From the NCBI GenBank assembly GCA_903848955.1, contig CAINHS010000083.1:1-53209 (forward strand): DNA of 53,209 nt, in the 5' to 3' direction. A program made the position numbers and the translations under genes. A model generated the notes under the pieces. That model ran no database searches. It worked only from the letters and a program-made list of their open reading frames with translations, and was not told the DNA's origin. This stretch comes from an uncultured beta proteobacterium. Lineage in GTDB: Bacteria; Pseudomonadota; Gammaproteobacteria; Burkholderiales; Rhodocyclaceae. Numbering within the stretch: the stretch's first letter is position 1; each line of letters opens with the position of its first letter. Below are positions 48,802-53,209 of the stretch, piece by piece.

Positions 48802-50328
48802 TCAGCGCGGCGCCATCGGCGAGTAGTGCCGGCGCAGGATGTTCTTCTGTACCTTGCCCATCGCGTTGCGCGGCAACTCATCAACCAGGTACACCCACTT
48901 CGGCACCTTGAAATTGGCCAGTTGGCCCTTGACCGCGGCGATGATGGACGCCTCGCTCAGCGCCGCGCCGGCCGCGTTCTTCTGCCGCACCACCACGGCG
49001 CTGACGGCTTCGCCGAAATCGGGATGCGGCAGGCCGATCACCGCCGACTCGACCACGCCGGGCAGGGCATCGATCAGCTCCTCGATTTCCTTCGGATACA
49101 CGTTGAGGCCGCCGGTGATCACCAGATCCTTGGAGCGGCCGCTGATGGTGACGTAGCCGTCGGCATCGAAGCTGCCCATGTCGCCGGTCCTGAAGTAACC
49201 GTCGGCGGTGAATTCTTCGCGGGTCTTTTCCGGCATGCCCCAGTAGCCGACGAAGACGTTGTCGCCCTTGACCTGGATGCCGCCGACCACCCCCGGCTTC
49301 AGCGGTGCATCCTTCGCCCCGACGATGCGCAGTGCCGTGCCCGGCAGCGGAAAGCCGACGGTGCCGCCGCGCCGTTCGCCTTCGTAGGGATTGGAAGTGA
49401 ACATGCCGCCCTCGGTCATGCCGTAACGTTCCAGAATCGTGTGACCGCTCCTCAGCCTGAACTCGTCGAAGGTTTCCCTGAGCAGCGGCGCCGAACCGGA
49501 AACGAACAGCCGGATGGTGCGGCAGGTGTCGCGAGCGAAAGCCGGGTCGAGCAGCAGGCGCACGTAGTAGGTCGGCACGCCCATGAACACGGTGGCCTGC
49601 GGCAGCAGCTTCATGGTGCGCGCGGCATCGAACTTCGGCTCGAAGAACATCGCCGACCCGTTCAGCAGTGTCGTGTGGCAGGCGACGAAAAGGCCATGCA
49701 CATGGAAAGTCGGCAGCATGTGAAGCAGCACATCGCCCGGCTGGAAATGCCAGTAGGCGTGCAGCGTCCTGGCATTGTGCGCGAGGTTGCCGTGGCTCAG
49801 CATGGCGCCCTTGGAGCGTCCCGTGGTGCCCGAGGTGTAGAGGATGGCGGCGAGATCGGCCGTGGTTCGCTGCACCGTGGCAAAACCGTCCGGCTGCGGC
49901 GCGGCGGCGGCGATCAGCGAACCGCGGCCGTCGTCGCCCAGCTCCAGCACATGCGGCACACGCGCATTCGCCGCCAGTTCGTCGGCCAGTTCGCGTATCT
50001 GCGGCCGACAGACGAAGAGACCGGGTTTCGAATCGGCCAGAAAGTACTCCAGCTCGTGACGCTGGTAGGCGGGATTCAACGGCAGGAAGACCATGCCGGC
50101 GCGGATCGCGGCGAGATACAGGACCAGGGCCTCCGGCGTCTTCTCCACCTGCGCCGCGACGCGGTCGCCCGGCTTGAGGCCCAGCGCAACGATCAGGTTG
50201 GCCATGCGTCCCGCGGCGCGCTCGACATCGCCGTAGGTCCACACCCGCCCGTCGGCGAGGATCATGCAAGGCGCCCGGTCCGTCTTGGGAAAACCGGAAG
50301 CAAGCAGGGAGTAGAGGTTCTGGTTCAT
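48802..50328 (-). CDS. Acyl-CoA synthetase, malonyl-CoA synthetase (MatB)-like
   Basis: 508-aa adenylate-forming enzyme. The P-loop LYTSGTTGRSKGAMLSH near residue 163, PTFHVHG near 213, ERYGMTEGGMFTSNPYEG near 298, YFRTGDMG near 380 and the C-terminal PRNAMGKVQKNILR (catalytic Lys) are present, so it should be active. Start MNQNLYSLLA and the RYGMTEGGM form resemble malonyl-CoA synthetases, but medium-chain substrates cannot be excluded. It is upstream of the acyltransferase on the same strand. Confidence 0.85.
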   Translation of the reverse strand: MNQNLYSLLASGFPKTDRAPCMILADGRVWTYGDVERAAGRMANLIVALGLKPGDRVAAQVEKTPEALVLYLAAIRAGMVFLPLNPAYQRHELEYFLADSKPGLFVCRPQIRELADELAANARVPHVLELGDDGRGSLIAAAAPQPDGFATVQRTTADLAAILYTSGTTGRSKGAMLSHGNLAHNARTLHAYWHFQPGDVLLHMLPTFHVHGLFVACHTTLLNGSAMFFEPKFDAARTMKLLPQATVFMGVPTYYVRLLLDPAFARDTCRTIRLFVSGSAPLLRETFDEFRLRSGHTILERYGMTEGGMFTSNPYEGERRGGTVGFPLPGTALRIVGAKDAPLKPGVVGGIQVKGDNVFVGYWGMPEKTREEFTADGYFRTGDMGSFDADGYVTISGRSKDLVITGGLNVYPKEIEELIDALPGVVESAVIGLPHPDFGEAVSAVVVRQKNAAGAALSEASIIAAVKGQLANFKVPKWVYLVDELPRNAMGKVQKNILRRHYSPMAPR

Positions 50329-50415
50329 GGTGGCGCGGCCGGTACAAGCAGTGCGCCCATTGTAGCCAATGCCAACCGGACCGGCCTGAAACTCGACGCC
50401 CTTCAGGTGCTCTAT

Positions 50416-50450
50416 CCCGGTCGGCAGCAGTTACTCTCTTGCCGACCGGG
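50416..50450. repeat. Perfect 11-bp inverted repeat upstream of the acyl-CoA synthetase gene
   Basis: CCCGGTCGGCA (50416-50426) and TGCCGACCGGG (50440-50450) form a hairpin with a 13-nt loop, about 90 bp upstream of the synthetase start on the minus strand. There is no T run, so it is not a standard terminator; a repressor site or small repeat is possible. Confidence 0.6.
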
Positions 50451-50640
50451 TCGAGGTTCTGCCGTTTACCACCGGCATTCAGTAAGCCCCCATCATGTAT
50501 TTCGGCCTCGCGTTACGACTTGCCCTTCTTACGTCCGCGTTGCAGCGGAAGCCGGCATTGGCAATGCCGTGAGCATGAGCTTTGAGTGGCCGGTGTCAGG
50601 CAAGCTACCGTCGAAGCAGGTGGCATTTCACACAGTAGCG

Positions 50641-50673
50641 AGCGGCCAATGGTAGAGTCGCATAATGGCCGCT
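50641..50673. repeat. Inverted repeat at left edge of AT-rich block
   Basis: AGCGGCCA (50641-50648) pairs with TGGCCGCT (50666-50673) across 17 nt. A related GGCCGCT occurs at the right side of the block (near 52630), where another hairpin lies at 52680-52699. Confidence 0.5.
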
Positions 50674-50749
50674 GGGAAATTGCCGTGAGATCTTTGCACC
50701 GGCTCACTTGGTGATACGCCACCAACAATTGTTTTGGGGAGACATTTTG

Positions 50750-51295
50750 TTGTCATCAATCTTGACTTATACCGGCAAGTGGTTCGATGTTCTCCGACCA
50801 GATCCCACGTTGATTGATATTTCCGATATTGCTGCGGCTCTCTCGAAACTCTGCCGCTTTGGAGGGCATTGTAAGAAATTCTATTCAGTAGCCGAGCACA
50901 GCATTACTTCATCAAAATGGATGGGGAACCGATACCAGGGAAATACGCCCCTTCGTATCTGGGCGTTACTACACGATGCGAGTGAAGCGTACATGGTGGA
51001 TATTCCTCGACCCGTCAAGCGCCAACTTCAGGAGTATGTACGCTTAGAAGATGCGATCCAGCATTCAATCGCCGTGCGCTTTGGTTTGCCGTGGCCAATG
51101 CCCGAGGAAGTGCATATCGTGGATCATGACATGCTGGCTATGGAATTACGCGCATACATGCCGTATCAACCTGAACACAAACTTCCGTCAATGCCGTCAA
51201 CAAGTGTGGCTTGTGATTTAGCCTCAATCACTCTCACTCCCGATTTGGCAGAAACCGCATTTCACGCAGAGGCATTGTCCCTTGGGCTGAAATGA
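50750..51295 (+). CDS. HD-domain phosphohydrolase (YfbR-like)
   Basis: 181-aa HD-domain protein. The metal-binding residues are present: His in YSVAEHSIT near residue 46, His-Asp in ALLHDASEAYMVD near 77, and Asp in IVDHDMLAME near 123. YfbR-type members hydrolyse deoxynucleoside monophosphates. No ATG suits; TTG 50750, seven bases after GGGGAGA, gives SSILTYTGKWFDVLRPDP, as relatives begin. The gene is clearly AT-richer than the preceding 50 kb, suggesting recent acquisition, and leads a three-gene plus-strand block. Confidence 0.82.
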   Translation: MSSILTYTGKWFDVLRPDPTLIDISDIAAALSKLCRFGGHCKKFYSVAEHSITSSKWMGNRYQGNTPLRIWALLHDASEAYMVDIPRPVKRQLQEYVRLEDAIQHSIAVRFGLPWPMPEEVHIVDHDMLAMELRAYMPYQPEHKLPSMPSTSVACDLASITLTPDLAETAFHAEALSLGLK

Positions 51296-51352
51296 GATGC
51301 GGAATGATATGTTCAGGCATTCGATGAAATTCGGACTTGTTGCACTTGATCC

Positions 51353-52120
51353 ATGATTGCCAAATCAGTGTACTTCTTGGGATGGGATGTCGGCGCTTGG
51401 CATTGCAAAGGCAACCTTACGGGTAAGACTAGCAGAGACGCCTTGGTCATTTTGGATTCGACGTTGAGATGCAAAGGTACATGGCGAGGAAATTTGTCAC
51501 AAAGCATTAACGATGCGGAGACAGCCGACGAATGGATTTCAATGCTATTTGCTTACTGCAAGATCGAACAGGAAGACCATAGGAGGTCAGAGATATTCCT
51601 CGCCATTGACACGCCACTAGGTTTTCCTGAAGCGTTTGTGCGTTTGGTGGGACATCGGCAATGCGTTCCGCGAATTGAAGAGTTGTCAAAAGACAACGTC
51701 TATTTGTACCGCGCGACGGAACGGGTCGTTGCTCAACATATTCGAAGGCCACTGTCAGCAGTTCAAGACCAGATTGGAAGCCAAGCCACTAAAGGGATGC
51801 ATATCTTGGCTAAGTTCGGAATCACAAAAGCGGCGGATTGCGGCGTTTGGAATTTGGTCACAGAAAATATTGCCCTGACAGTCATTGAGGCGTATCCGTC
51901 AGCTTGCGTCGGTTCGTCGAAGATCAATGAATTAAAGACACGATGCAATATCCCAGCTGTTTGGAGCGAAGATGAAAAAGATGCACTGACCTGCGCACTT
52001 GTCGCTAATCTTTATGGAACTGAGCGACACCTTCTGGCTGACCCCGATTCTGGAGTTCCACCTGATGAAGGTTGGATTTGGTTTCCGAAGGACGCGAATT
52101 TGATTGGCGGAGAAAACTGA
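51353..52120 (+). CDS. DUF429-like protein (RNase H-fold)
   Basis: 255-aa protein resembling the DUF429 family, predicted to have an RNase H-like fold. Acidic residues expected for such a fold are visible: Asp in FLGWDVGAWH near residue 12, Asp in FLAIDTPLGFPEAF near 87, Glu in VIEAYPSAC near 184 and Asp near the Asp-Glu-Lys-Asp-Ala stretch (EDEKDALTCALVA) near 205. Activity and substrate are unknown. The ATG at 51353 lacks a strong ribosome site. Base composition is low in GC, as in its neighbours. Confidence 0.75.
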   Translation: MIAKSVYFLGWDVGAWHCKGNLTGKTSRDALVILDSTLRCKGTWRGNLSQSINDAETADEWISMLFAYCKIEQEDHRRSEIFLAIDTPLGFPEAFVRLVGHRQCVPRIEELSKDNVYLYRATERVVAQHIRRPLSAVQDQIGSQATKGMHILAKFGITKAADCGVWNLVTENIALTVIEAYPSACVGSSKINELKTRCNIPAVWSEDEKDALTCALVANLYGTERHLLADPDSGVPPDEGWIWFPKDANLIGGEN

Positions 52121-52121
52121 A

Positions 52122-52622
52122 ATGACGGCGTATTCAAACGAGGTGCGGAGTCAATTTGAGCGGCTGGAGAATGAAGAGCTAATCGAAAAAGTTCAGAGCG
52201 GTACGCTGACTGACGCGGCTCACGAAATAGCCAAACAAGAATTAGCGTCGCGGGGTCTTCATGTTCCAGAGCAACAAGTGAGTAATCAGACCGCCGTAGA
52301 ACCCAAGCTAATTGCTGGTTTATACAGCAGCTTTCGCCGCGCATTTACGGGAAAGCTGGAGTTATGGCGAGTGTTTTGGAAAGGGGCGCTGATACCTGTC
52401 TTTTTGATGATGATCGTTAACGCCATTTTTTCAAACGATGGGAATATATCGAATATTGCCATGCGTTCTTACCTGTTGAGCTTTTGGTTTTGGATGTATG
52501 CGGTCTTGAAATGTTCTCCAAATGTGAGGACAGATCTGCTTGGCTTTTTGGCTAAACTGTATGCGGGGGCGATGCTTGTGTTGGTTCCGATTATGTTCGT
52601 CGGAAGTCTATTGCCACCTTGA
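52122..52622 (+). CDS. Membrane protein with N-terminal charged helix
   Basis: 166-aa protein beginning MTAYSNEVRSQFERLENEEL. The first 50 residues are charged and helical, with a LTDAAHEIAKQELASRGL element seen in several small membrane-protein families. Three hydrophobic segments follow (about residues 84-102, 115-130 and 142-163). It starts one base after the DUF429 stop, with GGAGA 9 bases upstream, so the two are probably cotranscribed. The family is not identified. Confidence 0.7.
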   Translation: MTAYSNEVRSQFERLENEELIEKVQSGTLTDAAHEIAKQELASRGLHVPEQQVSNQTAVEPKLIAGLYSSFRRAFTGKLELWRVFWKGALIPVFLMMIVNAIFSNDGNISNIAMRSYLLSFWFWMYAVLKCSPNVRTDLLGFLAKLYAGAMLVLVPIMFVGSLLPP

Positions 52623-52679
52623 AATTGATGGCCGCTTTGAGGGGTGCCTCCGGCCATTGACTATGACAATGTCAGCAGA

Positions 52680-52699
52680 CCGCTTCCAGTCTGAAGCGG
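52680..52699. repeat. Hairpin at right edge of AT-rich block
   Basis: CCGCTTC (52680-52686) pairs with GAAGCGG (52693-52699) across a 6-nt loop, just beyond the membrane-protein gene. There is no T run. It could end transcription weakly or mark the edge of an insertion. Confidence 0.45.
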
Positions 52700-52724
52700 C
52701 CAACACGATGTAATCGGTGCAACA

Positions 52725-52913
52725 TTACCCGGTTGGCGGGAAGTCCTTCAGGCAGCAGTTTCCCGAAGGATTCTTCGACTTGCACGAACACAATCCTGCC
52801 CGCGTCTTCTCCGCCACGAAGTCTTTCAGGGCCGGATTCCTGATGTAGTCGGACAAGCGGATGTCGAAGCAGTAGCAGATGATCCGGTCCCCGGGGGCTT
52901 CAGGCGCCGGCAT
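52725..52913 (-). CDS. Small cysteine-rich protein, CopZ-N/BFD-like
   Basis: 62-aa protein with a cysteine pattern of iron-sulfur metallochaperone-type domains: CYCFDIRLSDY near residue 13, CSCKSKNPSGNCCLKD near residues 42-57. The NPSGxCCL ending matches the N-terminal domain of CopZ-like proteins and BFD-type [2Fe-2S] modules. It would bind an iron-sulfur cluster or zinc. No clear ribosome site was found before the ATG at 52913. It lies 16 bp downstream of a TRAP transporter gene on the same strand. Confidence 0.72.
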   Translation of the reverse strand: MPAPEAPGDRIICYCFDIRLSDYIRNPALKDFVAEKTRAGLCSCKSKNPSGNCCLKDFPPTG

Positions 52914-52929
52914 GAGAATGTCCGGTGCT

Positions 52930-53209
52930 TTACTTGGTCGATATGCCCATCACCGCATCCGGGAAACCGGTGGCGATGGCAGGGAAGAAACAGCAGAGGA
53001 CGATGGCGATGAACATCAGGCCGACGAAAGGCATCACGCCCCAGATCACGTCCTTGAGCGGAATGTCGGGCGCGATGTTCTTGATGACGAAGATGTTGAG
53101 GCCGACCGGCGGATGGATCAGGCCCATTTCCATGACCACGGTCATCACCACGCCGAACCAGATCAGGTCGAAGCCGGCGGCCTTGAGCGGCGGCAGGATG
53201 ATCGGCGCC
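52930..53209 (-). CDS. dctM: TRAP transporter large permease DctM (3' part)
   Basis: The 3' end of a gene that continues past the right edge; only the last 92 codons are visible. The segment reads APIILPPLKAAGFDLIWFG, then MTVVMEMGLIHPPVGLNIFV and FVGLMFIAIVLCCFFPAIA, the C-terminal membrane spans of DctM-type permeases. These import organic acids with a periplasmic binding protein. The substrate cannot be judged here. Confidence 0.88.
   Translation of the reverse strand, partial: APIILPPLKAAGFDLIWFGVVMTVVMEMGLIHPPVGLNIFVIKNIAPDIPLKDVIWGVMPFVGLMFIAIVLCCFFPAIATGFPDAVMGISTK

Follow-up and report, generated by a model that had tools for sequence, protein, structure and literature searches.

A low-GC three-gene block with a candidate defence gene lies between two dispersed repeats in a Rhodocyclaceae contig

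The block and its three genes

The window, i.e. the whole stretch of DNA analysed, is contig CAINHS010000083.1 (positions 1-53,209; 53,209 nucleotides) of an uncultured beta proteobacterium of the Rhodocyclaceae (GCA_903848955.1). The ORF list confirms the three co-directional genes of the original prediction at 50750-52622, which encode an HD-domain protein, a DUF429-like protein and a small membrane protein (Table 1). This block of 1873 bp has a GC content of 48.0%, whereas windows of the same size over the first 50.6 kb have a mean of 64.4% (sd 1.8%) and a minimum of 60.2%. In 1-kb windows the GC content is 0.48–0.51 over 50.5–53 kb, compared with 0.58–0.70 upstream; the predicted low-GC block is thus real, and the drop persists in sliding windows. 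A scan of the neighbours (ligase, acyltransferase and TRAP transporter) recognised no defence island around the block. The tRNA search of the whole window found none, and no known RNA family reaches the Rfam gathering score in 50200-53209. A small cysteine-rich ORF of 62 aa is located on the minus strand between RE and dctM (52725-52913) and matches no Pfam or PADLOC family at E<=0.01.

Table 1. Features of the site in window coordinates.
Feature	Position	Strand	Evidence
AMP-binding ligase, left neighbour of the site	48802..50328	-	Pfam AMP-binding, E 4e-79
Remnant, 3' end of a DUF4143/AAA ATPase gene	50379..50477	+	78% identity over 99 bases to L052 2306-2403
Left end repeat LE	50541..50631	+	Profile matches; 77 copies across 31 genomes at E<1e-4, counting this one
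Hairpin just inside LE	50641..50673		Sequence
HD-domain phosphohydrolase, TTG start	50750..51295	+	ORF, family matches, alignment
DUF429-like protein, PADLOC candidate PDC-S44	51353..52120	+	PADLOC, E 7.8e-85
Small membrane protein, charged N-terminal region	52122..52622	+	Hydropathy; N-terminus similarity
Right end repeat RE, holds hairpin 52680-52699	52649..52701	+	42 copies across 31 genomes at E<1e-4, counting this one
TRAP transporter DctM (3' part), right neighbour	52930..53209	-	Pfam DctM, E 1e-18

At the TTG proposed for the HD gene, the protein lines up with the N-terminal end of a relative of 66% identity. H50, H75, D76 and D125 are invariant in the five aligned sequences, which agrees with the proposal that the protein keeps its hydrolysis residues. 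When the protein was compared with YfbR-type 5'-deoxynucleotidases for metal ligands, the HD ligands were present; its scores are below the family cut-offs of both Pfam YfbR-like (16.8 bits vs 25.9) and NCBIfam (14.3 vs 122). Relatives occur in 259 of 50,697 phage records, where they are not accompanied by relatives of the other two block genes, and judged by sequence the protein is a common phage-type phosphohydrolase. In congener G399 (L020 8567-11750) an HD gene of 66% identity stands beside genes for an ADP-ribosylglycohydrolase/macro-domain protein and a SIR2 protein, a group that, by its sequences, is possibly an ADP-ribose-related defence set.

The DUF429-like protein matches the PADLOC model PDLC05021 with residues 1-248 (profile positions 1-250 of 257), i.e. 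over most of its length, as is expected of a PDC-S44 member. Its acidic residues D12, D86, E179 and D210 are invariant in six relatives and invariant or nearly so across 11; acidic residues of this protein were first read from the sequence as those of an RNase H-like fold. The best likeness of the DUF429-like model is RuvC, and the DUF429 profile has no match among PDB sequences at E<=1.

The ORF of the membrane protein was listed from a TTG at 52104. The ATG at 52122 is the likelier start, since it is from this methionine onward that the protein resembles a relative; the N-terminus resembles that of a longer membrane protein in G399. The N-terminal region is charged, and two hydrophobic regions, instead of the predicted three spans, exceed the Kyte-Doolittle threshold of 1.4. 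Searches of Pfam, PADLOC and NCBIfam assigned the protein to no family at E<=1.

Genomic settings of the middle gene

PDC-S44 is present in 6 of 398 genomes of the phylum; within the genus, 2 of 31 genomes have the DUF429-like protein, own genome included in both counts; phage records gave no match to the protein at E<=1e-5. One DUF429-like match of 27% identity was found in a record filed as a plasmid (NZ_AP026896.1, Aeromonas caviae), the size of which (4.9 Mb) suggests a chromosome rather than a plasmid. The same record has a weak 31-base match to LE (E 0.07), far from the DUF429-like match.

Eleven other loci of the middle gene were read: L002-L006 from genome contigs, L021-L025 from the 398 phylum genomes and L239 from the genus; judged by length, L007 and L023 appear to be one contig. 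Known defence systems surround the relatives in two of the 11, and the block's own copy is not so embedded. In L002 the relative lies inside BREX, with BrxC (E 0) on one side and a PglX-like gene on the other; the latter matches PglX at E 9e-120 and a type IIG model at E 2e-120. The relative in L239 overlaps the end of the type I specificity gene HsdS (E 4e-62) at its stop codon, and the type I restriction gene HsdR (E 0) follows about 0.9 kb after it. WYL genes stand beside the relative in L003 and L005, and L003 also has an AAA gene with an IetA match. Reading of L021, L022, L024 and L025 by sequence recognised no defence neighbour; L024 and L025 hold distant family members (25% and 22% identity).

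One paper names PDC-S44, as a candidate. According to PMC12988326, PDCs were proposed by guilt-by-embedding, and most still await validation. Given the PDC-S44 match and the relatives within BREX and type I restriction, a defence role is supported for the middle gene and for no other gene of the block; we put the chance that it is a defence factor at slightly under even.

In the 9–21 kb read of each of the 11 loci, neither the HD nor the membrane protein had a relative by tblastn (E<=0.5), and the conserved trio was therefore rejected. The co-occurrence by which the original prediction was to be checked is absent from these loci, and the three families are largely found apart, the HD family alone in the 259 phage records. 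The predicted clustering with known defence genes holds for the middle gene in its two loci and does not extend to the trio. It is thus unlikely that the three genes act as one system.

The insertion site and the LE and RE repeats

Matches to the ligase and dctM lie on one contig and at most 303 bases apart in 19 of 30 congeners, and the gap is 4 bases in G407 and G425. Other DNA of 1.5–19 kb separates the two genes in G403, G415, G406 and G427. They are on separate contigs in G413; in G401 one contig has ligase and dctM side by side, and another contig holds a second ligase together with low-GC genes; and G398, G400, G422 and G423 have no full ligase match among the matches listed. Reading of the same site in L049-L053 recognised a sensor kinase in G403, a 472-aa unknown protein in G415 and a radical-SAM-rich cluster of about 19 kb in G427. 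IetAS (IetS E 0, IetA E 1e-150) adjoins the ligase in G405 (L054 1452-5009), where dctM is on another contig.

The DUF4143/AAA gene that is a remnant in the window is intact at the same site in G427. When its codons were compared by eye with L052, the remnant (50379-50485) appeared frameshifted. The adjacent flanks in most congeners, the other genes in others and the remnant in the window together indicate a variable site with turnover. Low GC content, the adjacency of the flanking genes in those 19 congeners and dispersed repeats at both ends support acquisition of the block. From the acquired defence module of the original prediction, acquisition is retained, defence is retained for the middle gene, and the three-part system is not.

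The short inverted repeats that were thought to bound the block both exist and are unremarkable as hairpins; the right one falls within RE, a repeat that recurs in the genus. Beyond this first reading, two dispersed non-coding repeats flank the block. A search of the genus with the right border yielded RE, a dispersed repeat of about 50 bp, and LE was found as a left-border match in several RE loci. The profiles were refined on the loci in hand, giving models R1 (LE, 8 sequences) and R2 (RE, 15 sequences). At E<=0.01, LE is present in 19 of the 31 genus genomes (own included), which leaves 12 without it, and RE is likewise present in 19. LE was found in none of 199 other genomes of the order (E<=1e-5, stricter filters). 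An exact 17-mer of RE occurs in seven viral contigs, and an exact 19-mer of LE in no viral contig. A literature search by title or abstract, in which the genus names were guessed, found no description of these ends.

LE and RE keep a fixed relation to each other. Among the 42 REs at E<1e-4, 27 have an LE on the same contig within 7 kb, and for 23 of these the nearest LE is upstream on the same strand, in the arrangement LE-cargo-RE (expected 0.25, p 8e-11). If any LE within 7 kb is counted, 24 of the 27 are in the proper arrangement, 15 of them on contigs without an LE seed. The four exceptions to the nearest-LE count are G000:C127 and G418:C102, where the nearest LE belongs to a tandem neighbour, an inverted RE pair (G420:C81) and an overlap (G418:C7). 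Since LE was first found in loci picked for RE, pairing as such was favoured by design; the seeds were not picked for orientation. The remaining 15 of the 42 REs are without an LE at this distance, and most LEs likewise lack a strong RE in their vicinity; contig ends explain some of these unpaired copies.

No terminal inverted repeats were found: neither of LE and RE is an inverted copy of the other (mean similarity over 30 pairs 21.3 direct, 19.3 inverted and 17.8 shuffled), the outermost ends being known at one site. Folding z-scores of 12 ends range from -3.3 to 0.1, and the consensus folds are weak. A further motif of 24 bases, about CGCCGTATCACCAGCGCCGACTTT (<=3 mismatches), occurs in 16 of the 40 fetched element regions (L152, L154, L155, L160, L162, L163, L167, L168, L170, L172, L173, L174, L180, L183, L184 and L187, with four in a row in L170) and is absent from the window.

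Forty-one stretches, the 40 fetched regions and the window, were read for brackets, i.e. an LE and an RE with the cargo between them. We delimited 33 brackets of 0.135–6.6 kb in 31 stretches from 14 genomes; the other 10 stretches have none. Two brackets, of 135 and 138 bp, are cargo-less, and tandem brackets are separated by 48–77 bp from RE to the next LE. The cargo is unrelated between brackets and mostly low in GC, with genes in either direction. In 27 of the 31 brackets with at least 200 bp inside, its GC content is below that of the surroundings (sign test 2e-5; 26 of 30 if the window is left out), with means of 0.544 and 0.608, respectively. Forty-three of the 49 listed cargo ORFs were scanned, one duplicate and five judged shadow ORFs being left out and the window's three genes not being among them. 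Among 25 of the 81 Pfam families matched are PAS (8), histidine-kinase ATPase (7), alpha/beta hydrolase (3), CHAT (2) and GGDEF (2); among the same 25 of 81 families, no transposase or integrase was recognised inside a complete bracket.

The bracket in G412:C59 carries a Lamassu set, with PADLOC matches to LmuA, LmuB and LmuC. The flanks of this site are 73 bp apart in G420, and the limits of the unit are wider than at L153 (below) and unclear. In G419, the 12 kb read around a Lamassu relative contain neither repeat. Flanking proteins, of which 74 of the 113 listed were scanned, also gave scattered PADLOC matches, and for this reason no enrichment of defence genes in the cargo is claimed.

One unit (L153) is precisely absent from four congeners (G419, G421, G423 and G413). 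The insert begins 69 bp before LE and ends 57 bp after RE. AGCG, which is present once in the empty site, stands at both borders, a possible target duplication seen at this one site. The homology to the ATPase gene in the window ends at 50477, 63 bp before LE, in agreement with L153. The L155 unit is absent from G407 and G421, with wider and unclear limits; L152, L163 and L157 have no usable adjacent flanks for such a comparison.

Two unrelated places in G401 (L187 2312-4239 and L184) share, at 100% identity, a 122-bp stretch that holds LE. About 36 bp behind one copy of this stretch begin two genes, each with a Pfam integrase domain (E 9e-31 and 8e-21), which are 75–84% identical to two genes of a trio in G418:C43. 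Such a set of tyrosine recombinases is RIT-like (recombinase in trio). The genes behind the unpaired LE may be the mover or may be a chance insertion. A simple motif search found no further such recombinase gene except one in L161, outside a bracket.

Readings of the brackets and comparison with known systems

The LE-RE bracket family is a stronger result than the three-gene module. The mostly fixed order and strand, the low-GC cargo, the two cargo-less brackets, the empty site of L153, the Lamassu bracket, the identical LE stretches in G401 and the turnover at the site favour the reading that a non-autonomous DNA element bears the block, and with it a candidate defence gene, as its cargo. This reading is weakened by the absence of a mover from the brackets, the unpaired LEs and REs, the 10 stretches without a bracket and the single site with exact limits, as well as by ends that are not inverted, by the Lamassu relative in G419 that lacks both repeats and by the 12 genomes without LE. 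On balance we regard it as probable. From sequence comparison we infer the mobility of the element, its enzyme and the function of the cargo, defence included.

The enzyme, a recombinase or transposase whose gene lies elsewhere, would recognise the ends in trans and would have placed the LE-cargo-RE unit between the ligase gene and dctM. An earlier insert at this site, the DUF4143-ATPase gene, would have left its remnant before the unit came. The PDC-S44 protein, with a putative RNase H/RuvC-like fold and a conserved acidic set, might act on invading nucleic acid and work as an accessory of restriction-type immunity. The HD enzyme might strip 5'-phosphates from deoxynucleotides and so leave fewer precursors for phage, and the membrane protein might anchor or signal. 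A wider proposal is more tentative: LE and RE could possibly be the ends of an undescribed class of bacterial cargo elements, without a transposase of their own or inverted repeats and moved in trans, that serve the genus as a general gene shuttle, take up sensor kinases, hydrolases and, as with Lamassu and PDC-S44, genes for phage defence, and are moved perhaps by RIT-like tyrosine recombinases.

LE and RE could instead be separate intergenic repeat families (REP/BIME-like) that gather round recently acquired genes, in which case the block came by ordinary recombination and the repeats later or by chance. The many LEs and the 15 REs that are unpaired at 7 kb, the third dispersed motif in 16 of the 40 fetched regions and brackets without a mover inside would all fit such families. 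However, independent repeats do not readily explain an order and strand that are fixed in 23 of 27 cases although the cargo genes run either way, or empty sites that lack both repeats and the cargo together, which makes this explanation rather unlikely. The tandem brackets, the weak similarity of LE and RE in direct orientation and the tyrosine recombinase genes directly behind one LE would also be expected if the brackets were integron-like gene cassettes, with LE and RE as recombination sites and the tandem brackets as arrays moved by a tyrosine recombinase. Both attC core boxes, however, are found together in just 2 of 30 LEs (0.4 expected from shuffled sequences) and in 2 of 30 REs (0.45 expected), and LE and RE have no common fold, so we consider cassettes improbable. 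That the block is a prophage fragment which kept a nucleotide-metabolism gene and two neighbours is very improbable: the HD relatives in phage records suit it, but the same records contain no match to the DUF429-like protein at E<=1e-5, none of the three ORFs is a phage structural gene and the window is without a tRNA.

Defence genes travel between bacteria, and small loads of 1–6 kb that bring no integrase with them are difficult to delimit. If the block is cargo of a non-autonomous element, two recognisable ends would allow such loads to be listed from sequence alone, and ends shared between loads would help to find more candidate defence genes and the enzyme that moves them.

Mobile insertion cassettes and transposase-less IS derivatives carry cargo between conserved ends with no transposase inside. 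The LE-RE brackets resemble them in this respect and differ in that LE and RE are not inverted repeats and no parent element was found in the brackets. Integron gene cassettes, taken here in their usual definition and with the usual attC core-box consensus, share with the brackets variable loads of one to few genes, some in tandem; unlike cassettes, each load has two different ends, and attC core boxes are not common. A Lamassu (LmuA/B/C) set is the cargo of one LE-RE bracket, whereas its genes are unrelated to those of the block and the ends alone are in common. Finally, the middle protein matches the model of PDC-S44, a PADLOC candidate single-gene system, to the known settings of which L239 adds a type I restriction locus; in contrast to a single-gene system, the block's copy travels with an HD and a membrane gene, between LE and RE and outside any recognised defence island.
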